Assembly (NCBI GenBank): GCA_030054175.1
Contig: JASGCM010000005.1
Coordinates: 62,001-126,000 of the forward strand
Direction of reading: 5' to 3'
Length of the DNA: 64,000 nucleotides
Origin: Alphaproteobacteria bacterium
Lineage (GTDB): Bacteria > Pseudomonadota > Gammaproteobacteria > Burkholderiales > Burkholderiaceae_C
The position numbers and the translations under genes were made by a program. A model generated the notes under the pieces. That model was not told the origin of the DNA. It worked only from the letters and a program-made list of their open reading frames with translations, and did not search any database. Positions 1 to 50,287 of the stretch are shown one piece after another. Positions within the stretch are counted from its first letter, which is position 1. Every line of letters begins with the position of its first letter.

Positions 1-590
1 GACTGACGAGCGAACAACTGGCCCTGCGCGACCATGTGAAGAATTTGCTCGACAAGGAATGCTCGCTGGATTACGTGGCCCGATGTGACGAGATGGGGCA
101 ACCCCCGCGCGAGGCCTTCAAAGCCTTGGCCGATCATGGCTGGGCGATTTGTGAGGACACCCTGCGCTACGAGCGCCTGTGTTTGTCGGCAGCGCGCATT
201 GGCGCTGCCCGCCAAGCTTTTGAGTTCGCACTGGATTACTCCAAAAACCGCATCCAGTTTGGCAAGCCCATCGGCAGTTTTCAGGCCATCCAGCACAAAT
301 TCGCCGAGATGAAGGTGATGCTCGACAGCGCCCAGACCATGGTCTTGCGTTACGCATGGTTGATGGAGCATGGTCAAGCCGAGCGCGGCGACACGGCGGT
401 CTTGAAGTATTTGGTGGGCGAGACCTACAAATCGATTTCCGATCAATGCTTGCAGGTCTTGGGTGGCTACGGCTATTGCAATGAGTACCCCATGCAACGC
501 TTCTTCCGAGATTCCCGTTTGGCCACCATCGGTGGGGGCACATCGGAGATTCAGAAAAACATCATCGCCGGCTCACTCGGCCTGCGTTGA
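1..590 (+). pseudogene. Acyl-CoA dehydrogenase, 5' cut by window edge and middle domain deleted
   Basis: The frame is open from position 3, so the true start lies outside the window. The first ~48 visible residues match the N-terminal helical part of acyl-CoA dehydrogenases (ALRDHV, then FKALADHGW). The sequence then jumps straight into the C-terminal helical domain (DTLRYERLCLSAARIGAA, IQFGKPIGSFQAIQHK, GGGTSEIQ). Family members are ~380 residues; this one would be ~200. The rest of the N-terminal domain and the whole beta-barrel domain that contacts FAD and acyl-CoA are missing. The junction is near 138-146, at a Gly-Trp pair found on both sides of the usual gap, and the reading frame is kept. 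A working flavoenzyme seems unlikely. It converges with a crotonase gene whose stop is one base away. Confidence 0.85.
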
Positions 591-591
591 T

Positions 592-1215
592 TCAGCCTGG
601 GCCCACAGCGGCCCGGCTGAGAGACTGCCGCGCCTCGTTCACAACCTGCGTCAGCGGGTCTTGCGCCACCACCTGATGCACCAGACCCCAGCGCTGGGCC
701 AGTCGGGCATCGATCAATTTGCCGCTGAGCGCCATATAGGACAAGGCTTTACGGGGCACGACCTGACCCACCGCCTTGATGATTTGGCCCCCCGGGACAA
801 AACCGAAGTTCAGTTCGGGCAGTCCGAACTGTGCGCCAGCGTGGGCCACCACATGGTGCGAGGCGGCCACAATGGGCATCGCCCCCCCCAAACAGTAGCC
901 CTCGATGGCGGTGTAGACGCGCTGCGGCAGTTGTCGCACCAGGTGGCATCGCCACTCTTCAGTCGCGGCCCGTGCCAGACGCAAGCTGGCGGCATCGCGA
1001 TCGCTGCCGTCGAAGAAGTCTTTCAAATCCATGCCTGTGCAAAAGTGTCCGCCCAAGCCATGAAACACCACTGCGCGGATGTCAGGTCGTGAGATCAATT
1101 CCCACATGGCGTCACGCAATGCCCAAGTCATCTCCACGCCGATGGCGTTGCGTTTGGCGGCGCGATCCAGACCAATCAGGCGCAATCCGGGGCAAGGGTC
1201 TTCGATGCGCAGCAC
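592..1215 (-). pseudogene. Enoyl-CoA hydratase/isomerase family protein, probably 3'-truncated
   Basis: Crotonase-fold protein of 207 residues. It shows the family signatures in order: FCTGMDLKDF (first oxyanion-hole strand), AIEGYCLGGAMP (second oxyanion strand), FGLPELNFGFVPGG and the GLVHQVV segment. The protein stops shortly after that, about 50-60 residues before the usual C-terminus, where trimer-forming helices normally lie. Its stop sits one base from the stop of the convergent, itself deleted, acyl-CoA dehydrogenase, so a deletion between the two genes is a plausible cause. The start is GTG at 1215, two bases after the stop of the upstream crotonase, suggesting translational coupling. 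It may still fold, so pseudogene status is inferred. Confidence 0.6.
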
Positions 1216-1217
1216 GG

Positions 1218-2000
1218 TCAGCCTTTCAAGCCGGGTTTGCTTTGCCCGGACAAAAATCCGGCGATGGCGTTGGAGCGGGTCGAAGGCCCCCCCTGTTCGG
1301 CTTGGCGCGCCTTGATCTCGGCGAACTTGGCGGCCGTGAAGCTGACGCTGACATCCCAACCCATGTCGCCCACCATGGCCAAGGTTTCTTTGGTGAATTG
1401 CAGAGCCAGGGGGTCTTTCGCCATGAGCGAAGCGAGCAACTCTTGCAGGGCTGGATCCAGCCCTTCGACCGGGTGACAGAAGCTGACCCAGCCTTGTGAC
1501 AGCGCATGGGCGGCGTCATGGGTGTGCGGATCGAGCAACAAGTCCAAGCCATCGGCAGTCGAGGCTGGCGCTTGAAAACGCGCAGTGTCGGCGGCCAGGG
1601 CGATGTCGCTGGCGTGTACCAAATCCAGCGCCGTCCCCCGGCAACGGCCGTCGACGACGCTGATCACGGCCTGCGGCAGCACACGGCAGGTGTGCTCGCG
1701 CCAGCGCCGGATCCGTTGCAAGGCCTGGCGGGTGCGCACGGCTTGTTCGGTCAGCATGTGCTGGAAGTGCGCCAGATCCAAGCCCAGTCCAAAGTCGGGC
1801 TCACCACGCAAGACCACCACCCGAACCTGCGCACATGTGGGCAGCTCTTGGAAGATGTAAGCCAAGGTTTCTACAAAATCGAGGTCCCAGCCGATGTCGC
1901 CCGCAGAGCGCATGCGCAGGACCAGAACCCCTGCTTGAAATTCGGAGTCGATCAAGGGGTGGCGGGCTGCCTCCCAGGGGGCCAGATCGGAGGGATTCAT
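1218..2000 (-). CDS. Enoyl-CoA hydratase/isomerase family protein
   Basis: Crotonase superfamily protein of 260 residues, starting MNPSDLAPWE. The fold-specific segments are visible (VVVLRGEPDFGLGLDL, VISVVDGRCRGTALDLVHASDIALAAD), followed by a full C-terminal helical region. The usual catalytic segments are divergent: CAG-MDL is replaced by GLGLDL and the glycine-rich loop reads GRCRGTA, so hydratase activity cannot be assumed. Isomerase or thioesterase-like activity or a structural role are alternatives. The ATG at 2000 overlaps the stop of the TetR gene upstream (ATGA), and the next crotonase follows two bases after its stop, so the three genes form one leftward operon. Confidence 0.8.
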   Translation of the reverse strand: MNPSDLAPWEAARHPLIDSEFQAGVLVLRMRSAGDIGWDLDFVETLAYIFQELPTCAQVRVVVLRGEPDFGLGLDLAHFQHMLTEQAVRTRQALQRIRRWREHTCRVLPQAVISVVDGRCRGTALDLVHASDIALAADTARFQAPASTADGLDLLLDPHTHDAAHALSQGWVSFCHPVEGLDPALQELLASLMAKDPLALQFTKETLAMVGDMGWDVSVSFTAAKFAEIKARQAEQGGPSTRSNAIAGFLSGQSKPGLKG

Positions 2001-2659
2001 GGTGCTCGCAATCCGGCGGCGGCAAAGTGGATCAAGCGATCCAGGGCGTTTTCCCAATCTCGGGTGTCGACCTTTTCGTCCGATAGCGATTCGATGCGGC
2101 CGGGGTGCGCCATGGTGTAGACCATGCTGCCCAATAGAAAGTGGAACCGCCAGTGCAATTCTTCTGCGCTGAGGTGGGGCAAGGCAATGGACAAGGCTTG
2201 CAGTGCCATTTGGCTTGAGCGGTTGAAGGCTTTATCCAGCACCCGGCGGCGAACTTCCTCTCGTTCAAAAGCCAGACGGGCCCGCAGCATGCGAAAGGAA
2301 TCACCATCGGCGGTGTCTTGTATTTCCAGTGCGGGGCGGAGGAAGGCACGCAAGATGTCTTCGACCTCGGGGCGCCCCTGGCGGTTGAGTTTCAGTTGCG
2401 ACAACATTCGTTCGCGTTGCTCGGCGATGGGCTGGGCGCGCAATTCGAAGATGCGTTCGAGAACAGCGATTTTGGAGCCAAAGTGGTAGTGCAACGAGGC
2501 ACTGTTCACCCCCGAGTCGGTGGTGATTTCGCGCAGGCTCACCCCGTCGATGCCGCGTTCGCTGAACAGGCGCTCCGCCGATTGCAAAATGCGCTCGGGT
2601 GTGGTGAGTTCGGTGCGAGTTGCGCTGGTGTTCTTGGCCATGCCGGTCTTTGCTGCCAT
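1997..2659 (-). CDS. TetR/AcrR family transcriptional regulator
   Basis: 220-residue TetR-type repressor. The N-terminal helix-turn-helix domain is clear: ERILQSAERLFSERGIDGVS, then the recognition helix region SGVNSASLHYHFGSK. The C-terminal ligand-binding/dimer domain is variable. It is the first gene of a leftward operon with two crotonases and faces a rightward crotonase/lyase/synthetase operon. The 91-base gap contains a 24-base near-perfect palindrome, the obvious operator candidate. By analogy with other regulators beside fatty-acid or CoA-ester genes, the effector may be an acyl-CoA, but that is inference. An internal Met at 2641 is an alternative start. Confidence 0.88.
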   Translation of the reverse strand: MAAKTGMAKNTSATRTELTTPERILQSAERLFSERGIDGVSLREITTDSGVNSASLHYHFGSKIAVLERIFELRAQPIAEQRERMLSQLKLNRQGRPEVEDILRAFLRPALEIQDTADGDSFRMLRARLAFEREEVRRRVLDKAFNRSSQMALQALSIALPHLSAEELHWRFHFLLGSMVYTMAHPGRIESLSDEKVDTRDWENALDRLIHFAAAGLRAP

Positions 2660-2715
2660 GACTGATTTTATTTTTTGCGGTTCGGTCGTGCGTTGGGGAA
2701 TGTCACTGTTGCGCT

Positions 2716-2739
2716 TGATTCAATCATATGATTAAATCA
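2716..2739. promoter_or_regulatory. 24-bp palindrome, candidate TetR operator
   Basis: An inverted repeat whose 12-base arms pair at 11 of 12 positions. The left arm is TGATTCAATCAT and the right arm ATGATTAAATCA. It lies in the divergent gap between the TetR gene (start 2659) and the rightward crotonase (start about 2772). Size, symmetry and position are typical of a TetR-family operator that controls both directions. No binding data are implied. Confidence 0.7.
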
Positions 2740-2754
2740 CATGTCTGGACATGT
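2739..2754. promoter_or_regulatory. Second palindrome in the same divergent promoter region
   Basis: Perfect 7-base arms ACATGTC and GACATGT separated by TG. It abuts the larger palindrome and lies just upstream of the crotonase start. It could be a second operator site or a site for another factor, or could be chance. Confidence 0.4.
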
Positions 2755-2771
2755 TGTCCACCCGATGCGCC

Positions 2772-3563
2772 ATGTCGCCTTCCTCTGATCTTTTGCTGCA
2801 AACGCGCGATGGGCATGTGGCCATCCTCACGCTCAATCGGCCGCAGGCCATGAACGCCATCAACCTGGCCTTGCGTTCAGCCCTGTGGGATGCCTTGGAT
2901 GCGTTGCGCCACGACAGCCATGTGCGGGCGGTGGTGCTGACTGGTCAAGGCGACAAGGCTTTTTGTGCCGGTATGGATTTACGCGAATTCGCTCAAATCA
3001 TGGCCCAAACCCCCCTGACGGAAATGCGCCGATTCCGTTGGGAAAAGGGCGAAGGACTGGCCACTTTTGACAAGCCGGTGATTGCGGCGGTCAACGGTTT
3101 AGCCATCGGCGGCGGGGTCGAATTGGCCTTGCTGTGCGACATCTGTGTGGCCAGCGAGCAAGCCAGTTTTGCCTTTGCCGAGGTCAGTCGTGGGCTGATT
3201 CCCGGCAACGGTGGTACCCAGCGTTTGGCGCGCCGCGTGGGGCAGGGCCGCGCTCTGGAGATGATTTTGTCGGCCCGTACCGTGCCCGCTGCCGAGGCCC
3301 TGTCCATTGGCCTGGTTGAGCGGGTGGTGGCTGCCGACCAACTGTTGCCCGAGGCCATGGCCTTGGCGCATCGCATCGCTGCCAATGCCCCGGTGGCCGT
3401 GCGCTTGGCCAAGGCCGCGGTGACCCGAGGCGCTGATGTGCCCCTGGCCGAAGGCTTGCAAATCGAGCGTGACTTGGCCACCTTTGTCTACACCACCCAA
3501 GATGCGAAAGAAGGCCCTTTGGCCTTCGTGGAAAAACGCCCGCCCCAGTGGCAAGACCGTTGA
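2772..3563 (+). CDS. Enoyl-CoA hydratase/isomerase family protein
   Basis: Complete crotonase of ~263 residues, likely hydrating or isomerising an enoyl-CoA. Motifs in order: LTLNRPQAMNAIN, VVLTGQGDKAFCAGMDLREF, PVIAAVNGLAIGGGVELALLCD, a Glu-containing FAEVSRGLIPGNGGTQRL loop matching the catalytic region of hydratases, and a C-terminal EKRPPQW tail. Start chosen at the ATG of MSPSSDLL; the ATG at 2751 lies inside a palindrome and is less likely. First gene of the rightward operon with a CitE-like lyase ten bases downstream. Probably repressed by the TetR protein through the palindrome upstream. Confidence 0.88.
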   Translation: MSPSSDLLLQTRDGHVAILTLNRPQAMNAINLALRSALWDALDALRHDSHVRAVVLTGQGDKAFCAGMDLREFAQIMAQTPLTEMRRFRWEKGEGLATFDKPVIAAVNGLAIGGGVELALLCDICVASEQASFAFAEVSRGLIPGNGGTQRLARRVGQGRALEMILSARTVPAAEALSIGLVERVVAADQLLPEAMALAHRIAANAPVAVRLAKAAVTRGADVPLAEGLQIERDLATFVYTTQDAKEGPLAFVEKRPPQWQDR

Positions 3564-3572
3564 GAGCAATCG

Positions 3573-4457
3573 ATGAAGCTGTTTCGCACCTTGATGTTCG
3601 CGCCGTGCACCCGCCCTGAGTTGATGGCCAAAGCCCAGGAAGGTCAGGCTGATGCGCTGATTTTTGACTTGGAAGATTCGGTGCCGGTGCTCAGCAAGGC
3701 GACGGCACGCCAGAATTTGGCGGCGATCTTGGCCGCTGGCCTGAAGAAACCCGCCTTCGTGCGCCTGAATCACCCTCGCGCGGGCGATTGTCAGGCCGAC
3801 CTGCAAGCCCTGGGTGATCGGCCCGTGCCGAACTTGGTGGGGGTGATCTTGCCCAAAGCCGAACATGCAGCCGATATCGCCACACTGTCTGCGGCGCTTG
3901 AAGCCATAGAGACACGTTGGGCTTGGCCGGTGGGCATTTTGCGCATCCTGCCCTTGGTCGAGACCTGTTTGGGCTTGCGCAACACCTACGAGCTGGCCCA
4001 GAGTTCGCCCCGGGTGTGCGGCATGTCGCTGGCCAGTGCCGAACAAGGGGATTTCATGGTTGACCTGGGTGGCCACTGGACGCCCAGCAGCATGGCCTTG
4101 GCCTATCCGCGCAGCAAGATGGTGGTCGACGCCCGAGCCGCAGGCTTGCCCTGGCTGGTCGATGGCGTGTTCATGAATTTGGGTGATGCCCAAGCGCTGG
4201 AGAACGAATGCCGATTGGCCCGTGAGTTGGGGTTTGTCGGCAAGATGGCCATCCACCCCAGTCAGGTCGAGGTGATGCACCGGGTGTTCTCACCGACTGA
4301 AGAAGAATTGCAGCACGCACGCGGTTTGCTCGAAGCTTTTCGTGCCGCCGAGGCGCAAGGCATTGGTGCCGTGCGTTACCAAGGAATGATGGTCGATTAT
4401 GCGAACGTCCGATTGGCCGAGCGCATCCTGGCTTTGTCGCAAGGCGCCGCCCCATGA
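3573..4457 (+). CDS. HpcH/HpaI aldolase/citrate lyase family protein (CitE-like CoA-ester lyase)
   Basis: 294-residue TIM-barrel lyase related to citrate lyase beta and malyl/citramalyl-CoA lyases. Visible signatures are LMFAPCTRPELM, ADALIFDLEDSVP with acidic residues that bind Mg2+, FVRLNHP with the substrate-binding Arg, ILPLVET and KMAIHPSQV. The family cleaves or forms C-C bonds in 3-hydroxyacyl-CoA esters. It sits between a crotonase and an acyl-CoA synthetase (overlapping start of the latter by four bases), fitting a step after hydration in a CoA-ester breakdown route. The exact substrate is not readable from sequence. Confidence 0.85.
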   Translation: MKLFRTLMFAPCTRPELMAKAQEGQADALIFDLEDSVPVLSKATARQNLAAILAAGLKKPAFVRLNHPRAGDCQADLQALGDRPVPNLVGVILPKAEHAADIATLSAALEAIETRWAWPVGILRILPLVETCLGLRNTYELAQSSPRVCGMSLASAEQGDFMVDLGGHWTPSSMALAYPRSKMVVDARAAGLPWLVDGVFMNLGDAQALENECRLARELGFVGKMAIHPSQVEVMHRVFSPTEEELQHARGLLEAFRAAEAQGIGAVRYQGMMVDYANVRLAERILALSQGAAP

Positions 4458-5330
4458 TCATTCAAGACGCCTATACCCCGTTGCGCTGCCTGGCCGACAT
4501 TGAGGCCATCGAGCAAACCCCGATCGAGCAGCGCATCACGCGCTGGGACTTTGCTTTGAATTTGTTGAACGGCTGTCGCATCGACCCCCAGCGGGCCGCA
4601 TTGCATGCGACCTGTCTGGGTGATGTCGATGGTCCCTTGCTCACCTGGCGCTTCGCCGATTTGGAGCGCCGCTCCGTGCAAGTGGCCAATTTTTTGCGGT
4701 CGCAAGGGGTGCAAGCCAATGACGCGGTGGCCATCGTCAGCCCCACAGTGCCCGGATTGTTTGCCGCCATGATCGGCACATTGTTGGGCGCGCGGCCTTT
4801 CCCCATCAACTGGATGCTTGAGGCCGAGCCCTTGCGCGATTTGATGCGCGAGTCCAAGGTGGCGGCCGTTATTGCGCTCGGGCCCACTGAGGGTTTCAAC
4901 ATCTGGCAGCGCGTTCAACAAGCGGTGCAGGGTTTGTCGCGGCCTGTGCCGGTGTACACCTTGCATGATCCCTTTGGTCCCACGCATCAAAACGATTTAT
5001 TCAGCCTGTCCGGGTCACAGCCGGGCACCTTGGCTTTTGATCGGCCAGTGGCCCAGCGCCAAGACGTGGCGTGCTATGTGCATTCGGGTGGCACCACGGG
5101 GCATCCGAAGATTGTTCGCATTTTGCACGGCGGCATGGTGTTTCGACAATGGGCGGCCAACCAGGGGCTGGCGTTCACGCCGCACGATGTGGTGTTATCG
5201 GACACGCCGCTGTTTCACATCGGCGGCTTGCTGGTGCGCGGCCTGGTCAGCACTGCCGATGGCCACACCACGGTCATTCCCAGCATGCATGGTGCGCGTG
5301 ACAAGCGCTACATCGCGAACTATTGTTTCA
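4454..5330 (+). pseudogene. AMP-binding acyl-CoA synthetase, 3' half deleted
   Basis: The N-terminal ~290 residues are a normal AMP-forming acyl-CoA ligase: LLTWRFADLERRS, then the phosphate loop YVHSGGTTGHPK, and DTPLFHIGG. After the segment ending RYIANY the homology stops at about 5325 and the frame continues to 5566 only through the antisense of a truncated dehydrogenase gene. The adenylate-binding YG/TE and GD motifs and the C-terminal lid with its catalytic Lys are all missing, so adenylation should fail. ATG overlaps the stop of the lyase gene (ATGA). The upstream half fits activation of a carboxylic acid for this operon. Confidence 0.85.
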
Positions 5331-5667
5331 AAGCCGTCGCGGCGGCTTCTTTGTCCACCAGGGGCAGGGTGCTGGTCTCGATCACGATTTGGCGACCGGG
5401 CTTGGCAGGGCTGGCGGACAGTTCGGTGACCACACCGGCCAGTGCTTTCACGCTGGGCAGAGAAAACAACAGGATGTCGGTCAGCTCGGCCACTTGGGTG
5501 TTCGATGTCGCGACTCGACCTCCGGCGCGCTTGAGCCTTTGCTTGCAGGCGAGGTCGATGTCATGACCCATGACCAGAAACCCGTGTTCGATCAGGGTTT
5601 CGGCCATGATGCCGCCCATGATGCCCAATCCGATGATGCCCACGATGGGGCTGGCTGAAGCTTTCAA
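5320..5667 (-). pseudogene. 3-hydroxyisobutyrate dehydrogenase-like NAD(P)-binding protein, C-terminal domain deleted
   Basis: Starts with the Rossmann motif IGLGIMGGIMAETL of beta-hydroxyacid dehydrogenases and continues through LLFSLPSVKAL and the substrate-side VIETSTLP motif. Homology ends near 5330, at the point where the facing acyl-CoA synthetase also ends, so the ~170-residue helical domain with the catalytic Lys is lost. Both convergent genes lost their 3' ends in what looks like one deletion. The start is TTG at 5667 with a good AGGAG six bases upstream. It follows the RND permease by 27 bases on the same strand. Confidence 0.82.
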
Positions 5668-5694
5668 AGAAATCTCCTGTACTGCGGTTCGTGT

Positions 5695-8600
5695 TCAGTT
5701 GTATTCGGGTAACTTCAATGGGCCATTGCCGGCCCAACGGTCCAGGTACAGGTAGATGACCGGGGTGATGTAGAGGGTGATCACCTGCGAAAACAACAGG
5801 CCTCCGACCACGGCCACGCCCAGGGGCATGCGCAATTCGGCGCCGGCACCCAGACCCAAGGCGATGGGCAATGCGCCCATCAAGGCCGCAAAGGTGGTCA
5901 TCAGAATGGGTCTGAAGCGCAACACGCACGCTTGGCGGATGGCTTGCTCAGGCGTCATGCCATGTTCGCGCTGCGCAACCAAGGCGAAGTCGATCATCAT
6001 GATGGCGTTCTTCTTCACGATACCGATCAGCATCAAGATGCCGATGGTGGCGATCAAGGTGAGTTCAATTTTGAAGAACCACAGGAAAAGCAAAGCCCCA
6101 ACCGCTGCCGAGGGCAGGCCGGCCAAAATCGTGATGGGGTGGATGTAACTCTCGTACAACACGCCCAAGAGCACATAGATCACGGCCAAGGCGACTTGAA
6201 TCAGGATCAGTTGGCTATTCTGCGAACCTTTGAAGACCGCCGCATCGCCGCCATAGCTGGTGATGATGGAGGCGGGAAAGCGCAGCTCTTGGCCAAATTT
6301 TTCGATCTTGGTGGTCGCCTCACCCAGTGCCACGCCTGGGGCCAGATTGAACGAGACCGTCACCGATTGCAATTGACCCTGGTGATTGACCGCGGTGGGG
6401 CCGACGCTGCGGCTGATCTTGACCAAGGTGGACAGCGGGATGACCTGCTGTGTGGTGCGGGATCGCACATAGATTTTGCCGATCGCGTCTTCAAATTGAC
6501 GGTATTCGCCCGGGGCTTCCATGATCACCAGATAGCTGTTGGCCGGGGTGAAGATGGTCGAAATTTGGCGATCGCCAAAGGCGTTGTACAGGGCGTTGCG
6601 CAGGTCTTGGATGGATACGCCCAATGCGCCCGCCTTGTCGCGGTCGAATTGAACATTGGCTTGCAGACCACGCATCTGAGTGTCGCTGGTGACGTCGCGG
6701 AACGACTCGTCGGCACGCATCTTGTTGATGAGCTGTGTCGACCATTCGGTCAGCGCGTCGGCACTGACGCTTTGCATCACGTACTGGTAACGGCTCTTGG
6801 TGACTTTGCTGCCCAGGTTCAGGTTTTGCACCGGGCGCATGAACACGTTGAAGCCAGGGTAGCGAAGCTTTTGTCGCAAACCTTCGATCACCTTCTGTAT
6901 TTTTTCACGCTCGCCACGGGCCTTGAGCACGATGAACATGCGGCCATTGTTGAGCTGTTGAGGGTTGTTGGGCGGTGAGCCGATGAATGAGGACACATAA
7001 GCCACATTGGGGTCTTGGCGCACGATCTCGGCGGCACGGGCTTGCAAGCGGGTCATCTCTTCAAAAGAAATGTCCTCGGACGCTTCTGTGATGGCTTGGA
7101 TTTGACCCAAATCTTCTTCCGGGAAGAAGCCCTTTGGACTGATCATGGTGAGCCAAACTGTCAGACCAAACGTGAGGAATGCCATGCCCAAAACCCAGCG
7201 GCGGTGCTTGAGGGCGAAGTCGAGAGTGTCGGCATACGTATCAAGCAAGGCCTTGAAGCCGTGTTCAAACATTTGGCCGAATTTGTTCTCGTGCTGGTGG
7301 TTGGTGTTGGTTGGGGTCAGAAATCGGCTGCATAGCATGGGCACCAGGGTCAGCGAAACGATGGCAGACACCAGTACCGACAAACCGACGACCACAGCGA
7401 ATTCATGAAACAGCAGGCCTATGACGCCGGGCATGAAGAAGATGGGAATGAATACCGCCACCAGAGAGACCGAAATTGAGAAGATGGTGAAGGCCATCTC
7501 TTTCGAGCCTTTCAGTGCAGCCTCGAGGGGTGCCATGCCTTCTTCGATGTGGCGCATGATGTTTTCTAACATCACGATGGCGTCATCGACCACCAGGCCC
7601 ACGGCCAGAGTGATGCCCATCAGCGAGATGTTGTCCAAGCTATAGCCCAAGGGGTAGAGCAGGGCGACCGCACCGATCAGCGACACCGCCAGGCTGAGGG
7701 TGGGGATGATGGTGGCTACCACGTGGCGGATGAATACCAGGATGACCAAAATCACCAGGGCCATGGTCAGAGCCAAAGAAATCTTGATGTCGTGAATGGC
7801 TTCGCGGATCGAAACCGAACGGTCGTTCAGGGTCAGCAACTCGATTGATGCGGGAAGCTGTGCCTTAAAGACCGGAATGAGTTCGCGGATTTGATCGATG
7901 ACATCGACCGTGTTGGCGTTAGGCTGGCGTTGTACCGACAAAATGATCGAACGTTCGCCGTTGTAGCTGGCCGCAGTGCGCACCGACTCGTAACTCTCTT
8001 CGATTTCGGCCACATCGCCGACCCGGATGATCACGCCGTTGCGGTTGGTCACAATGAGTTGTGCAAAGTCTTGGGCACGATACAACTGTTTATTGACGTT
8101 GATGGTCAGCATTTGCCTGGGCCCATCCAAAATGCCCACAGGAGTGTTCGAGTTGCCCGAGTTGATGGCCGTCATCACGTCGTCCATCGTCAGGTTGTGT
8201 GCTGCCAAGGCCTGAGGGTTGGCGCGCACCCGAACGGCGTATTTCTTTTGACCGTTGACGTTGACCAGGGCCACGCCGTTGATGGTTGAGATGGTGGGGG
8301 CGATCAGGCTTTCGGCGAAGTCATTGAGATCGGACAGGTTGAGTGAGGGGGAATTGAGCGCTACGAACAAGATCGGGGCGTCGGCCGGATTGACCTTGCG
8401 GTAAGAGGGCGGGGTCGTCATCTCGACCGGCAGCAGGCGCTGGGCACGCAACAAGGCGGCTTGCACGTCTACCGCCACCAAGTCGATGTTCTTGTCCGAA
8501 TTGAATTCCAGCGTGATGCTGGTCGCGCCCAAGATGCTGGTCGAGCTGATGACACTGATGCCATCGATGGTCGAGAACTGTTTCTCCAGGGGCAGGGCCA

Positions 8601-8787
8601 CCGAAGCCGCCATGGTCTCGGGGCTGGCGCCGGGGAATTGGGCGGTGACGCTGATGACCGGGGTGTTGTAACTGGGCAGTGCCGCGATGGGCAGCTTCAG
8701 GTAGGCCAACCACCCGGCCAACACGCAGGCCACGCTGAGCAGCACGGTCATGACCGGCCGCTGGATGCACAACTGGGGCAGATTCAT
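5695..8787 (-). CDS. RND multidrug efflux transporter, inner-membrane permease (MdtB/MdtC type)
   Basis: Complete 1030-residue proton-driven permease. It starts with the usual first membrane segment (RPVMTVLLSVACVLAGW), followed by a large periplasmic porter domain, a central block of membrane helices with the proton-relay motif GLVVDDAIVMLENI, a second periplasmic domain, and final helices (LIGIVKKNAIMMIDFAL). It exports drugs or other small toxic molecules with a periplasmic adaptor and an outer-membrane channel; no channel gene is nearby. Its ATG overlaps the adaptor stop by four bases. Residues resemble MdtC/MuxC more than AcrB, from motif memory only. Confidence 0.92.
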   Translation of the reverse strand: MNLPQLCIQRPVMTVLLSVACVLAGWLAYLKLPIAALPSYNTPVISVTAQFPGASPETMAASVALPLEKQFSTIDGISVISSTSILGATSITLEFNSDKNIDLVAVDVQAALLRAQRLLPVEMTTPPSYRKVNPADAPILFVALNSPSLNLSDLNDFAESLIAPTISTINGVALVNVNGQKKYAVRVRANPQALAAHNLTMDDVMTAINSGNSNTPVGILDGPRQMLTINVNKQLYRAQDFAQLIVTNRNGVIIRVGDVAEIEESYESVRTAASYNGERSIILSVQRQPNANTVDVIDQIRELIPVFKAQLPASIELLTLNDRSVSIREAIHDIKISLALTMALVILVILVFIRHVVATIIPTLSLAVSLIGAVALLYPLGYSLDNISLMGITLAVGLVVDDAIVMLENIMRHIEEGMAPLEAALKGSKEMAFTIFSISVSLVAVFIPIFFMPGVIGLLFHEFAVVVGLSVLVSAIVSLTLVPMLCSRFLTPTNTNHQHENKFGQMFEHGFKALLDTYADTLDFALKHRRWVLGMAFLTFGLTVWLTMISPKGFFPEEDLGQIQAITEASEDISFEEMTRLQARAAEIVRQDPNVAYVSSFIGSPPNNPQQLNNGRMFIVLKARGEREKIQKVIEGLRQKLRYPGFNVFMRPVQNLNLGSKVTKSRYQYVMQSVSADALTEWSTQLINKMRADESFRDVTSDTQMRGLQANVQFDRDKAGALGVSIQDLRNALYNAFGDRQISTIFTPANSYLVIMEAPGEYRQFEDAIGKIYVRSRTTQQVIPLSTLVKISRSVGPTAVNHQGQLQSVTVSFNLAPGVALGEATTKIEKFGQELRFPASIITSYGGDAAVFKGSQNSQLILIQVALAVIYVLLGVLYESYIHPITILAGLPSAAVGALLFLWFFKIELTLIATIGILMLIGIVKKNAIMMIDFALVAQREHGMTPEQAIRQACVLRFRPILMTTFAALMGALPIALGLGAGAELRMPLGVAVVGGLLFSQVITLYITPVIYLYLDRWAGNGPLKLPEYN

Positions 8788-9917
8788 TTCTTGCTGCCCG
8801 CTGCCGGTGTGATGATGCGAACCTTGCCGCCCGGGCGCAGGTTTTGTCGACCATCGAGCACGATGTGGTCTTCGGCTGTGATGCCGGTGACGACCAAGGT
8901 GTTTTTGTGGGCGTAGACGTCTTTGATCGGGTTGGGTTTGACCGTGTTGTCTTCACCCACCACATAGACAAAGCGACCATTGACGGTGGTGACCACCGCC
9001 TCAGGTGGGATCACCAAGGCGTCTTTCAGCACGCCCAACTCGGCGCTGACTTGTACGAACTGGCCAGGCCAGAGGTCACCCTTGGCATTTGCGAAACTGG
9101 CCTTGACGCGGATGGTGCCGCTGGCCGGATCGATGCTGTTGTCGACGAAATACATGTCCCCTTCGAGCACTTGGCTGGTGGCAGGCACCGTGGCTTTGAC
9201 TTTGGCGCGACCGGAAGCGTGGCTGGATTTCAGGCGGGCGTATTGGCTTTCGGGCAAACTGAATTGCACTGCGATGGGGTCGATCTGGGTAATGGTGACT
9301 AAGGCCGCGGTGGCGGGTTGCACCAGGGTGCCGGGGTAGACGTTGATGGCTCCGGTGCGACCCGAGATGGGCGCACGAATCACGTTGTAGCCCAAAGCCA
9401 CTTCTGCGGCGGCCAATGTCGCTTCGTCAGATTTGACCTGGGCCCATTGCGCGTCGCGCTGAGCGGTTGTGGTGTCTAACGAGCCTTGCGAGATGAAGTT
9501 CTGTGCGCGCAATTCGCGAGAACGCGCCAGTTGCCGATCTTGATCCAGGCCCAAGGCGCGGTTGCGAGCAAGAGCCGCACGCAATTTTTCGACGTTTGCC
9601 AAGTCGTTTCGGTCATCCAGAACGAACATGGGTTGACCCTGCTGGACCACCTGGCCTTCCTTGATCAAGACTTCCTTGACCAGATTGGAGATTTGGCTGC
9701 GCACTTCCACGACCTTCAATGGGACTACGCTGCCGTTGACCTCAACCACCAGGGCGGTGTCGGCGACCTTGGCCTGGATGACGGTGACAGCTTGTTCGGT
9801 GGGATTGCTGCGACTTTTGGTTTCTTCGGTTTGGAACAGGCGCCAAAAGATGGCCCCGGCGACTCCGCCGATCAGGGCCAACAGCACGATCCATCGGCCC
9901 GGGTGTTTGATTTTCAT
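8784..9917 (-). CDS. RND efflux periplasmic adaptor subunit (MdtA type)
   Basis: 377-residue membrane-fusion protein with an N-terminal membrane anchor (WIVLLALIGGVAGAIFW, residues ~9-25), a lipoyl-like half motif (VRSQISNLVKEVLIKEGQ), a long helical hairpin (~100-170), the second lipoyl half (VIRAPISGRTG) and beta-barrel/membrane-proximal domains. It bridges the permease to an outer-membrane channel. An AGGAA ribosome site precedes the ATG. First gene of the two-gene leftward operon. No dedicated regulator lies next to it. Confidence 0.92.
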   Translation of the reverse strand: MKIKHPGRWIVLLALIGGVAGAIFWRLFQTEETKSRSNPTEQAVTVIQAKVADTALVVEVNGSVVPLKVVEVRSQISNLVKEVLIKEGQVVQQGQPMFVLDDRNDLANVEKLRAALARNRALGLDQDRQLARSRELRAQNFISQGSLDTTTAQRDAQWAQVKSDEATLAAAEVALGYNVIRAPISGRTGAINVYPGTLVQPATAALVTITQIDPIAVQFSLPESQYARLKSSHASGRAKVKATVPATSQVLEGDMYFVDNSIDPASGTIRVKASFANAKGDLWPGQFVQVSAELGVLKDALVIPPEAVVTTVNGRFVYVVGEDNTVKPNPIKDVYAHKNTLVVTGITAEDHIVLDGRQNLRPGGKVRIITPAAGSKK

Positions 9918-10037
9918 GGGTTCCTTTCTCGTCCGACGATCCGATCCTTATAGATCGCCGTATCACTTGCCGATGCTACTCGGAAAGAGGAGATTTCAAC
10001 AGAGTGAAAACGAGCAATGTAAACAACTGTAAATGCG

Positions 10038-10285
10038 TCAGGCCGACGCAAAAGTCATTCGTACCTTCATGGCCTGCTGGCGGTTGGCTGCCAAATTAAT
10101 AAACGCTTGCTCGAATTGCAGGGGGGACAGGCTGTGACTGATCAGGGGTTTGAGCACCTCAGGTCAGAACGGCAAATCCCTCCAGCGAGCAAGTGCACCC
10201 GCAGTTGACCGGTTTGGGGGCGTCCGGTGGGCCAGTCTTCCACCCGCACGTCCCGGTCGGCGTGGATGACCAGGGCTTGGGGCAT
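10038..10285 (-). pseudogene. idnD: L-idonate 5-dehydrogenase remnant: 5' and 3' ends only
   Basis: The 5' part encodes MPQALVIHADRDVRVEDW... up to GGICRSDL, the start of zinc alcohol dehydrogenases of the idonate 5-dehydrogenase type, with the zinc-ligand Cys region. It then stops at a TGA at 10142-10144. In another frame the last 39 codons encode the normal C-terminus (SLSPLQFEQAFINLAANR, then QQAMKVRM) ending at 10038. About 270 residues between the two ends are gone; the junction is near 10155. The active zinc site and the coenzyme domain are lost. It sits just downstream of a short-chain dehydrogenase remnant, which supports an old idonate/gluconate utilisation operon. Confidence 0.78.
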
Positions 10286-10300
10286 GGGGGGTACCCAGTT

Positions 10301-10414
10301 TCAGAGGGTAGCGGTCACGCAGCCATCGGCATACAGGACATGGCCTTTGACAAATTCAGAGGCCGGGATTTTGCTGATCCAAAGATCATTGGCAATAACC
10401 CTGAGGTGAATCAT
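10301..10414 (-). pseudogene. Short-chain dehydrogenase C-terminal remnant (gluconate 5-dehydrogenase-like)
   Basis: A 37-codon open frame whose last ~21 residues (ASEFVKGHVLYADGC, then VTATL) match the C-terminal end of SDR enzymes such as gluconate 5-dehydrogenase, normally SSFVNGHVLYVDGG. The preceding ~16 residues are not recognised and probably come from beyond the deletion. The Rossmann nucleotide motif and the YxxxK site are absent. The pairing with the idonate dehydrogenase remnant 15 bases downstream supports the identity, but the match is short. Confidence 0.55.
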
Positions 10415-10455
10415 TTCGCCTTGACGATCGACAGGGCTCTGGCAAGATTGTTGGG

Positions 10456-11408
10456 ATGAACAAGATTCTGATTCAACAAGCCACCCTGATCACCATGGAC
10501 CCCCATTGGGGCGGTCTCCCTCAAGGGGATCTGTTGATCGAAGGCGATCGCATCGCCCACATCGCCCCACACATTGAAGCCGGCGACGCGCAACGCATCG
10601 ATGCCCGAGGCATGATCGTTATCCCCGGCCTGGTCAACGCCCACATGCACACTTGGCAGACTGGTTTGCGCGAGGTGGCGGGCAATTGGACGGTGCTGGA
10701 GTACTTCAAAAAGATGCACGCCGGCTTGGCCACCCTGTTCAAGCCCGAGGACATTGAAATGGCCAATCGGGTGGGCGGGTTGAATCAGATCAACTGCGGC
10801 ACCACCACCTTGGTCGATTGGTGTCACAACAACCCGACCCCGGCGCACACCGACGCTGGCATCGATGGATTACAAGCCAGCGGCATCCGTGCGGCGTTTT
10901 TTCACGGCTCTCCAAACCCGATCCCAAGCCGGGGCAAAAGCCGTTTTGGGAGATGCCGCACCCGCGCTCGGAAATCGATCGCTTGCTCAAAACCCGCTTC
11001 AGCACCCGTGATCAGTTGCTGACCTTGGGCATGGCCATTTTGGGGCCACACTATTCCACCTACGAAGTGGCTGTTGAAGACTTCCAATTGGCCCGCGAAA
11101 TGGGCTTGATCGCCATTGAGGGAGCCCGCATGCTGCGCATGCAAGACCGCATCGGTTCATTGACGCCCGGCAAGCAGGCCGACGTGGTGTTGGTGCGCGC
11201 CAGCGACTTGAACATGCAACCCATACACGACCCCGTGACCAGCGTCATCACCCAAACCAGCGTGGGCAATGTCGACACCGTTTTGGTGGCCGGACAAATC
11301 AAGAAACGCCACGGCCAACTGCTGGCCAGCGATGTGGGTGCCATGCAAAACCGTCTGGCCGAATCAGGACAAAGAACCATGCGCGATTTACAAGCCCTGT
11401 TGCATTGA
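10456..11408 (+). pseudogene. ATZ/TRZ-type amidohydrolase, frameshifted and internally deleted
   Basis: The first frame starts at ATG 10456 and shows the amidohydrolase metal motif NAHMHTWQTG (HxH) and a normal N-terminal barrel. Near 10912 one base is missing (SPNP should continue as KPDPKPGQKP), and the correct frame resumes through PFWEMPHPRSEIDRLL. A second lesion follows near 11105-11120: LAREMGLIA runs directly into IEGARMLRM, GSLTPGKQADVV. Related enzymes are ~450-480 residues; here ~315 codons remain, so roughly 150 residues with the later metal-binding His and Asp are missing. Related proteins deaminate or dechlorinate N-heterocycles. Divergent from the idonate remnants. Confidence 0.82.
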
Positions 11409-11500
11409 CCCGATGCCCCAGGCAGCATTTGGCTGCGCACAAGCCCATCAAGGTGGAATAATGAGCCCGTTTTGTTGAACATCATTTCAGGAGGAAAACC

Positions 11501-12034
11501 ATGAGCACACCAGCACCTTCCATCGAGCGCGTCGCCCATGTGGGCGTGTTCGTGTCCGATCTGGATCGTTCGATTGCTTTTTACCGCGATATCCTGGGTT
11601 TGACCGTCACCGATGAAGATCGGGGCCCCGGCCTGATTTTTTTGTCTTCGCACCCTGATGACGAGCACCATGAGATTTTGTTGGCCAGTGGTCGCGATGT
11701 CCCACCCAATGTGAAATTGCTGCAACAAATCGCCTTTCGCTGCTCGCGCCTGAGTGATGTGCTGGGCTACTGGAAGCGCTTCAAAGAAAACAACGTCAAA
11801 ATCATCTACACCATCACCCACGGCAACGCCATCAGCTGCTACTTCAAGGATCCAGATGAGAACATCCTTGAGGTGTACTGGCAGACCGGCCTGAAGGCCC
11901 GTCAAGGTTTCTTGATTGGTTTGGACTTCAACAAGAGTGAAGCCGAATTGATCAGCGAAGTCGAATCCTTGGTGAAAGAGCACGGCGAAAAAGGCGTGAT
12001 CGATTTCAAATTGCTCGAAGAGCAAAACATCTGA
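11501..12034 (+). CDS. VOC-family protein (glyoxalase/extradiol dioxygenase fold)
   Basis: 177-residue vicinal-oxygen-chelate protein. It has a beta-alpha-beta-beta-beta module start (VAHVGVFVSDLDRSIAFYRD), a second-module metal-ligand region (DDEHHEILLA) and the typical end motif FKDPDENILEVYW. Candidate metal ligands are His of AHVGV, His of EHHE and Glu of LEVYW. After that comes a C-terminal helical tail of ~45 residues. The substrate is not known; the family includes glyoxalases, ring-cleavage dioxygenases and resistance proteins. A very strong AGGAGG lies upstream of the ATG. It is intact although genes on both sides are broken. Confidence 0.82.
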   Translation: MSTPAPSIERVAHVGVFVSDLDRSIAFYRDILGLTVTDEDRGPGLIFLSSHPDDEHHEILLASGRDVPPNVKLLQQIAFRCSRLSDVLGYWKRFKENNVKIIYTITHGNAISCYFKDPDENILEVYWQTGLKARQGFLIGLDFNKSEAELISEVESLVKEHGEKGVIDFKLLEEQNI

Positions 12035-12101
12035 TCCTGGTTTTCGCACCTTTCTTTGTGGACGGGTGCGATTTTTCTACACTGTTTCATTTCCATCAGG
12101 C

Positions 12102-12518
12102 ATGACGACCCACAACAACCGACCGCCCAGCTATGAGCCCTTTGGTTGGCACCATTGGCACGCCGATTTTTGGATGTCTTATCAGTTCCGTCGGGGCTTG
12201 GGCGAGACCCAAGAGGGCGGTGGAACCGTCAGCGAAGTCTTTCAGGCCGCCAGCAAAATCATTCCCAATGATTTTGAGAGTTGGTACCGCGAGTGGACGC
12301 ACATTGCCGAGCGCAATGACCGCAGAGGCGATGCTGAAATGACTTCAGGCCATGTGCGCACCGCCATGAATTGCTGGTTGCGTGCTGCGAATTACTTTCG
12401 CGAGGCCGAGTTTTGGCTGAAATCCGATGATCCCAGGCGGTTGGCCGCTTTTGACCGTTGCGAGCAGGCCTCGCACAAATTCATGGCCCAACTGCGTCCC
12501 AGCGCCGAGGTGGTATGA
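12102..12518 (+). pseudogene. Alpha/beta hydrolase N-terminal helical domain only (3' deleted)
   Basis: 139 codons encode a helical, Trp-rich N-terminus (WHADFWMSYQFRRG, AMNCWLRAANYFREAEFWL) like the lid domain that precedes the hydrolase domain in 2,6-dihydropseudooxynicotine-hydrolase-type enzymes. The protein ends after SAEVV, exactly where the catalytic alpha/beta hydrolase domain should begin. The facing dehydrogenase gene also loses its C-terminus here, near 12515-12530, so a single deletion probably removed both 3' ends. The nucleophile elbow and catalytic triad are absent. The family assignment is from general pattern and is moderate. Confidence 0.6.
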
Positions 12519-12519
12519 T

Positions 12520-13253
12520 GGCCAAGTCTTTGGACATGGTGGCGAAGGTCGCAGAAACGTTCTCTTGGTAGTTGTTTTTCACCATCATCGGGCCGCGCAC
12601 CTCGAAAATGCGCGATGTGGCGGCGCTGCCGCACAAGACCTCGTAAATGGTTTCAGGGGGAATGCCCGCCTTCATGCCCAGGGCCATCGCTTCGGCGGTG
12701 GAGACGTTGTGGATGGTCACCAACAGGTTGGCCACGTACTTCATGCGACTTCCATTGCCGAATTCGCCCAAAAAGTGCGAGATGCGTCCCATGGCATGCA
12801 GGGCTGGCTTAAGGCCTTCGTAAGCGGCGAGGTCGCCACTGGCAAAAAAGACCAAATCGCCTTTGGCGGCTTGAGCGCCGGTGCCGCTGACGGGGCAGTC
12901 CAACAGGGTGACGCCACGCTCGGACAAAGCCACGTGCGCCGCGAGTTTGTCATCCAGACCCAAGGTGCAGGTGTCAGCAATCACCATGCCTTTGTGCGGG
13001 CCTCGATCAGACCTTTGGGGCCGGTCATCACGGCGTGAAAGGCCGCTGGAGTGGGCAAAGAGGTGATGACCCAATTGCAATGCTCGGTCACGGCCACAGG
13101 TGAATCCGCGCCGCGCAAGCCTTGGGCTTCGAGTGCGCGTTGGCGTTCGGCGTTGGCGTCGTGACCGACCACCGTGTAGCCCTTGCTCATCAGGTTGCGC
13201 GCATACGCCGAACCCATGATTCCCAACCCAACCACACCGATGGTTTCACTCAT
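12520..13253 (-). pseudogene. 3-hydroxyisobutyrate dehydrogenase-like gene, frameshifted and 3'-truncated
   Basis: Starts at 13253 with the Rossmann motif VGLGIMGSAYARNLMSKG. Around 12996 one base is missing: the first frame ends at EARTKAW, and the correct frame resumes with HKGMVIADTCTLG and LLDCPVSGTGAQAAKGDL (substrate motif), then GSRMKYVANLL with the catalytic Lys. Homology ends at ATFATMSKDL near 12525, about 60 residues short, where the facing hydrolase is also cut. It is a second paralogue of the dehydrogenase at 5.3-5.7 kb, and both lost their 3' ends. It lies downstream of tRNA-Asn, separated by a terminator. Confidence 0.82.
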
Positions 13254-13265
13254 AGTTGACCTACC

Positions 13266-13297
13266 CAAAAAGCAAACTGCCCCAGTATAGGGGCAGT
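13266..13297 (-). terminator. Rho-independent terminator of tRNA-Asn
   Basis: On the minus strand an 8-bp perfect stem (ACTGCCCC / GGGGCAGT) with a 6-base loop is followed by TTTGCTTTTT. It begins about 12 bases after the tRNA 3' end, so it ends the tRNA transcript before the dehydrogenase pseudogene. Confidence 0.75.
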
Positions 13298-13308: not shown

Positions 13309-13384
13309 TGGCTCCCCGACCTGGGCTCGAACCAGGGACCTACGGATTAACAGTCCGGCGCTCTACCGACTGAGCTATCGGGGA
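13309..13384 (-). tRNA. tRNA-Asn (GTT)
   Basis: 76 bases on the minus strand with a full cloverleaf: acceptor TCCCCGA paired with TCGGGGA, the D-arm GCTCAGTCGGTAGAGC, the anticodon loop CTGTTAA with GTT, the T-arm GGTTCGAGCC and an encoded CCA end. The anticodon reads Asn codons. Confidence 0.96.
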
Positions 13385-14667: not shown

Positions 14668-14770
14668 CTTGGCGGTCCATGTATGGTTTGAGTTGACTGA
14701 ATTCGAAATAGATGACAAAACATCAGGGCGGACGCTGACATTCATCAATGTGCGAGATCAAGGAGTTTTC

Positions 14771-15760
14771 ATGGACGATCGATTGAATCAACGCAGGAAA
14801 GTGTTGCGAGCCGCTGGGGCCGCCGCCATGCTTGCGGCGCCCTCTTGGGCCTGGTCACAGGGAGCTTATCCCAATCGACCCATCAAGATATTGGTGCCTT
14901 TCCCACCGGGCAATACCATTGACATCATGGCCCGCATGCTGCAAATCCCCATGGCAGCCTCGCTGGGGCAGAGCATCGTGGTGGAGAACATCGGTGGTGC
15001 GGGTGGACGCATTGGCACGGCGGCCATCGTGCGCGCCAACCCTGACGGTTACACCATTGGCGCAGGCCAGTCGGGGACGCTTTGGGTGCAACCGCACACC
15101 ACCAAAGACCCGTCCTATGACGTCACCAAAGACCTGACCCGCATTGCTTTGACAGTGCGCAACTTCAATGTGCTGGTCAGGAACAACAATACCCCGTTCA
15201 ACAACTTGGCTGAGATGATTGCATGGTCCAGATCGAACCCGGGCAAGTTGACTTATGGTTCCAACGGGGAGGGTGGATTCCCTCACTTGTGGTTCGAGGA
15301 AATGGCCAAGTTGGCGGGCATCAAGTTCACCTATGTCCCCTATAAGGGGGCGGCTCAGGTGGCCACCGACCTGATTTCGGGACAAATCATGGTGGCGGGC
15401 GACGGGGTCTCTGCCATGGTGCCCTATATCAATAACAACCAGATGAAGCTGCTGGCCGTGACCAACGAAGCCAGGGTGAGTCAGTTCCCGGACGCCCCGG
15501 CCATCGCCGAGAGTTTGCCCGGCTTTGCCGCCAACGGTGATTTCGGCTATGTGGGGCCAGCCAAGATGCAACCTGAGCATGTGCGGGTGTTGAACAAGGC
15601 GATCAATGACGCCATCATGTCGTCCGAAGGACAGGCCCGCTTGCCTGGTTAGAGCTTGACCGCCATTGCCCAGCCTCCTGAGTTTTTCGAGCAAGTGTTT
15701 CGCACGCAGTACGAGCGCTTTGGCAACATCATCAAGTCCATTGGCTATCAGCCCAAATGA
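14771..15760 (+). pseudogene. Bug/TctC-type tripartite tricarboxylate receptor with an in-frame stop
   Basis: Periplasmic solute-binding protein of the Bug family with an arginine-containing signal peptide (RRKVLRAAGAAAMLAAPSWAWSQG) and the mature start AYPNRPIKILVPFPPGN. Other family motifs are GGAGGRIG, PDGYTIG and YVPYKGAAQ. The frame stops at a TAG ending at 15652, after residue 293. The same frame then continues without a stop for 35 more codons, giving the normal C-terminus (LTAIAQPPEFFEQV, then IIKSIGYQPK) to 15760. A single base change (for example from TTG or CAG) explains it. The product lacks the last ~36 residues unless the stop is read through. RBS AGGAG is present. Confidence 0.85.
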
Positions 15761-49689: not shown

Positions 49690-49779
49690 TCAATCCAGCA
49701 ATGCCTCCAGGCGAGAGATTGCTTCGTCAATGACATCTTGGGGCACGCTCTCGATGTCGCCCCGGTCAAATATGGCCAT
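49690..49779 (-). pseudogene. MazF/PemK-type toxin remnant: ends only
   Basis: 29 codons: MAIFDRGDI resembles the start of MazF/PemK toxins (usually MxRGDIxLV), while SVPQDVIDEAISRLEALLD resembles their C-terminus. The ~80-residue middle, with the RNase site, is missing. Its ATG overlaps the stop of the antitoxin-like frame (TAATG), as in real mazEF pairs. The match is short. Confidence 0.5.
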
Positions 49780-49937
49780 TAAAGTACCTCGCCACCAACG
49801 GGTTGCGCAACATTGCACAGCGCCAGATCAGCCGGGGGAGGGGCCTTCAGGTCGCACTGGGCGATCATGTCGGCCAGAACAAACTTGGGCATCGAGGCCA
49901 GTACTACCTTGCCGTCTGCCGTCGTCTCCAGCTTCAT
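49779..49937 (-). pseudogene. MazE-type antitoxin, shortened
   Basis: 52 codons. The C-terminal part (LADMIAQCDLKAPPPADLAL, then PVGGEVL) matches the toxin-binding tail of MazE/ChpS-like antitoxins, normally with DLALWDxAxPVGREVW. The N-terminal AbrB-type DNA-binding domain (usually ~45 residues) is largely missing; only MKLETTADGKVVLASMP remains before it. It would not bind DNA normally. Its stop overlaps the toxin remnant start. Confidence 0.5.
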
Positions 49938-49945
49938 GATTTGAC

Positions 49946-50287
49946 CTACGCCAATCCCAACCCCTCACTGCGGGCGTGTCCTGCAATATGCAGGTCATTG
50001 ACGCCGATACTTTGGCCGACTCGCTCCAAGGCGGTGCGGATGCTGCCGTAGTGCTGGGCCGCTTTGGGGCCGTAGGGCAGCACCGCCAGACGGCTGCAAA
50101 AGTCCTCGATGGTCTTGAGGTTCTCGTTCACGCGCGAGCTTTTCTCAGCACCATGCATCAGCTCCGCCAGGGTGATGGTGGACATGGCCATGCGATCTGC
50201 GTGTGCGTTGAACGTGGCCAACATCTGAATGGGCCGACGCTTGAGCACATAGACGACGATGTTGGTGTCCAGCAGATAACGAAGCAT
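49946..50287 (-). pseudogene. vapC: VapC-type PIN-domain toxin, C-terminus missing
   Basis: 113 residues against ~132 for complete homologues. PIN-domain acidic residues are present at D7 (LLDTN), E42 (LAELMHG) and D98 (GVNDLHIAGHA). It ends at SEGLGLA, where complete proteins continue with the VTNNxxEF segment carrying the fourth conserved acidic/Asn site. A MazE-like remnant follows 8 bases later, so a deletion joined two toxin-antitoxin loci. Its ATG overlaps the stop of a vapB-like remnant (TGATG). It may be inactive; this should be tested. Confidence 0.7.

Follow-up and report, generated by a model that had tools for sequence, protein, structure and literature searches.

The window, which is the whole stretch of 64,000 bases analysed here, corresponds to bases 62001-126000 of contig C13 (163,237 bases) in a 3.10 Mb genome of a freshwater-type bacterium, assembled in 39 contigs, with an estimated completeness of 99.59% and an estimated contamination of 4.91%. 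The nearest named isolate for one window protein is a Limnohabitans, and the named relatives of that protein are mainly Burkholderiales; this isolate and a plasmid match described below suggest that the genus is probably Limnohabitans. The damaged genes and their intact neighbours are listed in Table 1. Damage was judged by tblastn of proteins of relatives against the window. The initial annotation had named seven genes as damaged, and every one of them is truncated or gutted when set beside intact copies in relatives. Intact homologues of six of the seven were found in same-genus genomes, while that of the seventh, the hydrolase, was found in one genome only, which belongs to a different family of the order. 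The DNA identity of the same-genus matches is only ~65-77% over the scarred genes and rises to at most 83% in one cluster beyond the window. These matches are too distant for the breakpoints to be base-exact.

Table 1. Damaged and intact features of the window (positions counted from its first base)
Feature	Position	Strand	State
Acyl-CoA dehydrogenase remnant	1..590	+	In-frame loss; reading frame starts 16 bases upstream of the window
Two enoyl-CoA hydratases, TetR regulator, third hydratase, HpcH/HpaI-type lyase	592..4457		Intact neighbours
AMP-binding acyl-CoA ligase, 5' part	4454..5325	+	~299 of 629 codons
3-Hydroxyisobutyrate-dehydrogenase-like gene, 5' part	5323..5667	-	~115 of 299 codons (one relative)
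RND efflux pump and membrane-fusion protein (presumed)	5695..9917	-	Intact
Idonate dehydrogenase (presumed), C-terminal part	10047..10153	-	~36 codons
Idonate dehydrogenase (presumed), N-terminal part	10153..10285	-	42 codons
Gluconate 5-dehydrogenase (presumed), C-terminal remnant	10304..10363	-	~20 codons; other breakpoint set by eye
Amidohydrolase remnant	10456..11408	+	Frameshift near 10914; ~400 bp deletion at ~11115
Hydrolase (presumed), 5' part	12126..12515	+	~139 of 398 codons, against one relative outside the genus
3-Hydroxyisobutyrate-dehydrogenase-like gene	12514..13268	-	Last ~58 codons gone; frameshift near 12990-13000
TctC-type binding protein	14669..15757	+	Likely premature in-frame stop at 15650-15652
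PIN-domain (VapC-like) gene	49693..50287	-	Ends short, then small remnants

The acyl-CoA dehydrogenase gene keeps codons ~1-51 and 221-380 of 380 and has lost ~546 bp with its frame intact. Seven intact copies of this gene were fetched and six of them were taken into the comparison at the junction, where 182-183 codons are missing in frame relative to all six. The junction lies somewhere in ~130-146, and the plateau shifts with the pair of relatives chosen. The remnants of the AMP-binding ligase and of the dehydrogenase that faces it abut at 5322-5327. The genes that follow presumably code for an RND efflux pump and a membrane-fusion protein.

Beyond the efflux genes only the ends of the idonate dehydrogenase gene are left, amounting to ~42 and ~36 of ~350 codons. 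This gene adjoins the gluconate 5-dehydrogenase gene in five of the seven fetched loci (L145, L146, L147, L150, and L151); both names are presumptive and rest in part on the initial annotation. The gluconate 5-dehydrogenase tail is an additional lesion that the initial annotation did not contain, and the two frameshifts and the likely premature stop in Table 1 are further lesions beyond its list, which also passed over the intact genes lying among the scars. A paralogue of the amidohydrolase is near full-length at G000:C8:3126-4454 (L121), where it covers 98% of a relative's protein at 61% identity. The hydrolase is only presumably one, and Pfam and NCBIfam gave no match to it. It meets the facing dehydrogenase gene, which keeps ~246 of 304 codons, at 12514. 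In the TctC-type gene weak homology to several relatives runs on past the stop, and the Pfam match ahead of the stop extends to position 230 of 274.

Decay like that of the window lies elsewhere on the contig and is not confined to the first 13 kb of the window. A second decayed cluster is found at C13:6600-9000 (L156:6600-9000). It has a TctC-type gene with frame changes, the start of a CocE-like hydrolase gene fused to codons 117-248 of nrtB, and nrtB joined directly to an intact cyanase gene (cynS), the gene after nrtB being lost; the names CocE, nrtB, and cyanase are presumptive. Relative to the 11 relatives that have both flanks, 913-1006 bp are missing between nrtB and the cyanase gene. 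In five of 20 fetched cynS loci cynS was matched and an nrtB match was absent from the fetched stretch, so the gene order of this outside cluster is not fixed. Further along, at C13:22912-25714, there are a gene that we take to be DUF849-like, with a frameshift and a stop, and a presumably amidohydrolase-like gene with a frameshift (24.1-25.7 kb). A reference-free scan, which is a rough control of low power that is blind to in-frame deletions and prone to false calls at edges and start sites, gave 16 events on the whole 163 kb contig, of which three fall within the initial 13 kb of the window and four within the initial 13 kb of the contig. The same scan gave nine events in five other stretches totalling 84.7 kb, some of which sit at the edges of those stretches. 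By that measure the enrichment in the first 13 kb of the window is weak. Decay was sampled on one contig and in five further stretches, and the reference proteins were a limited set of 1438. Since all of these proteins were drawn from fetched loci, the lack of flags elsewhere is weak evidence. These observations also bear on whether the scars could be the artefact of an assembly that left out parts of intact genes. The 39 contigs and the 4.91% contamination estimate speak for such an artefact, but frameshifts, a stop, and gene-to-gene fusions occur in the same stretch and the lesions lie at several separate sites of one 163 kb contig, and we regard it as very unlikely.

The initial annotation held that such dense scars which preserve gene ends are unusual. 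A placement null, in which one deletion of the observed size was slid over every position within each dead gene or pair, did not bear this out. The probability that both outer ends survive, each with at least 90 bp, is 0.70, 0.86, 0.84, 0.81, and 0.85 for the individual blocks, and the joint probability that all five blocks keep both ends is ~0.35. These values assume a single deletion per block, convergent partners that lay side by side, and block sizes as seen in relatives. The idonate/gluconate pair entered the null as one block with one deletion, though its surviving tail points to a second one. In none of the nine listed loci do the members of either convergent pair lie next to each other, so their past adjacency is an assumption. 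Where a deletion falls within one gene, the ends are left by definition. Keeping of the outer ends is therefore the outcome expected from random deletions between retained genes.

The initial annotation had also suggested that one mutational process made the scars. A rival to ordinary decay is accordingly a single process with a sequence signature, either short direct repeats or microhomology. Seven junctions were compared, five of them inside the window and two beyond it, by counting shared bases at the best split against majority sequences of the relatives. In this strict test the overlaps are 0, 0, 2, 0, 1, 0, and 1 bp, where the amidohydrolase junction was set by one relative on both sides, the right side of the ligase/dehydrogenase junction by one relative, and the left side of the hydrolase/dehydrogenase junction by one relative. 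Looser matching gave candidate repeats at a few junctions. GGCTGG is present on each donor side around the acyl-CoA dehydrogenase junction, and GATC lies close to the amidohydrolase junction. Outside the window there are a T-run close to the nrtB/cynS junction and TTGGG, which in several relatives flanks the cocE/nrtB junction. Deletions simulated in five intact genes showed that an overlap of at least 6 arises by chance with a probability of 0.001-0.004 (0.002-0.007 in frame) and one of at least 4 with a probability of 0.017-0.029 (0.020-0.041 in frame). GGCTGG, GATC, and TTGGG near three junctions, together with the rarity of such in-frame overlaps in the simulation, were suggestive at first, but the majority-based test did not bear them out. 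At the acyl-CoA dehydrogenase junction the best split falls before GGCTGG and outside the repeat, the strict overlap is 0-2 bp at all seven junctions, and no motif common to the seven was seen. The repeats are candidates by loose matching at a few junctions and are not upheld by the strict count. Given also the mixed types of lesion and the similar damage elsewhere on the contig, a single distinctive process is not supported; a signature process behind all the scars is, in our judgement, unlikely. The repair defects that had been suggested were set aside as well. RecA, RecB, and MutS are all found in the genome, which argues against the loss of RecA or RecB or of core repair. Ku-dependent end joining was set aside because Ku is missing from the genus sample: it was found in none of 45 same-genus genomes, namely this one and 44 others, some of them incomplete, and in six of 73 genomes overall.

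A different origin to be weighed is a mobile island that entered at tRNA-Asn (13309-13384), the scarred segment being its decaying end. The scars do lie on the 3' side of this tRNA, where four relatives appear to have different genes, a difference judged from protein starts without mutual alignment. A genomic island at a tRNA could be expected to leave a duplicated tRNA end (att repeat), but C13 has no second copy, 14 or more bases long, of any part of this tRNA or of the flank on its 3' side, and there is a single 13-base match at C13:2582. The gene order of the first 5.3 kb is also that of two relatives, G069 and G050. We therefore consider an island quite unlikely. Presumed thiamine genes lie ~0.04-3.5 kb away on the 5' side of this tRNA in four relatives; here the distance is 6.9 kb and other genes intervene.

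The most likely explanation, to which we assign a probability of about 0.85, is that accessory catabolic genes lying between retained neighbours have recently decayed in the ordinary, deletion-biased way, leaving the scars. The earlier statement that deletions struck dispensable DNA is supported, in that dispensable catabolic genes were hit. Accessory catabolic genes freed from selection would have undergone independent deletions of ~0.4-1.5 kb or more, in addition to small indels and a likely stop, and the surviving deletions would be those that did not reach the kept hydratases, the efflux pump, a glyoxalase-type gene, a dehydrogenase, and the tRNA. Since deletions reaching kept neighbours would not be retained, a dead gene or a dead convergent pair would keep its outer ends. 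Each scar probably represents one deletion and the members of the convergent pairs were probably once adjacent; selection on the neighbours may limit the deletions, and the cuts may come from ordinary illegitimate recombination. In the remnants the ratio of divergence at codon positions 1 and 2 to that at the third position is 0.24-0.60, and in six intact neighbours it is 0.35-0.48. Divergence is thus concentrated at third positions much as in the intact neighbours, which fits a recent loss.

Deletion-biased gene decay of this kind is already known in bacteria (PMC2916853; see also PMC5447742). As in the bacterial pseudogenes of PMC2916853, there are truncations, frameshifts, and stops here and unselected DNA is lost, but large internal deletions make up a greater share of the lesions. 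That paper places short indels and premature stops among the commonest mutations of bacterial pseudogenes, whereas the tally in this stretch is six putative large deletions to three small lesions. This excess of large deletions counts against the reading of ordinary decay. That deletions in this lineage are favoured at the meeting point of two dead convergent genes, or within single dead ones, seems to us highly improbable; if it were true, transcription-linked breaks, for example, could be the cause, and the ratio of large end-keeping deletions to small lesions would be higher than in other free-living bacteria.

Two other systems can be compared with ordinary decay between retained genes. 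In Haloquadratum walsbyi, according to PMC3119063, repeat-mediated deletions have short direct repeats at many junctions. The likeness is that there are deletions, some of them within dispensable genes; the difference is that the candidate repeats here are few and none holds by the strict test. In the border-induced selection model, as PMC9748784 presents it, deletions extending into conserved borders are eliminated. The ends near kept neighbours survive here in a like manner, and borders may shape the surviving deletions in this window too, although the model was fitted to human introns and the idea is carried over. Titles and the beginnings of abstracts from the literature on pseudogenes and gene loss in Limnohabitans did not contain such a pattern, which leaves its absence from print unproven. 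These results mean that striking genes reduced to their ends are explicable without a special mechanism. The window is a small worked case in which deletions penned between kept genes yield end remnants, and it could be the starting point for counting lesion types across the genus, a free-living group.

At 49.7 kb the initial annotation had placed a mazF-like remnant, an identity for which Pfam gives no support: the 29-amino-acid piece at 49693-49779 does not match any Pfam MazF/PemK model. In the PIN-domain gene beside it, at 49949-50287, the match to the model stops at position 106 of 120. A relative of this VapC-like gene is carried on the Limnohabitans plasmid NZ_AP027057.1, and shares 75.5% identity with it across 57% of the query.
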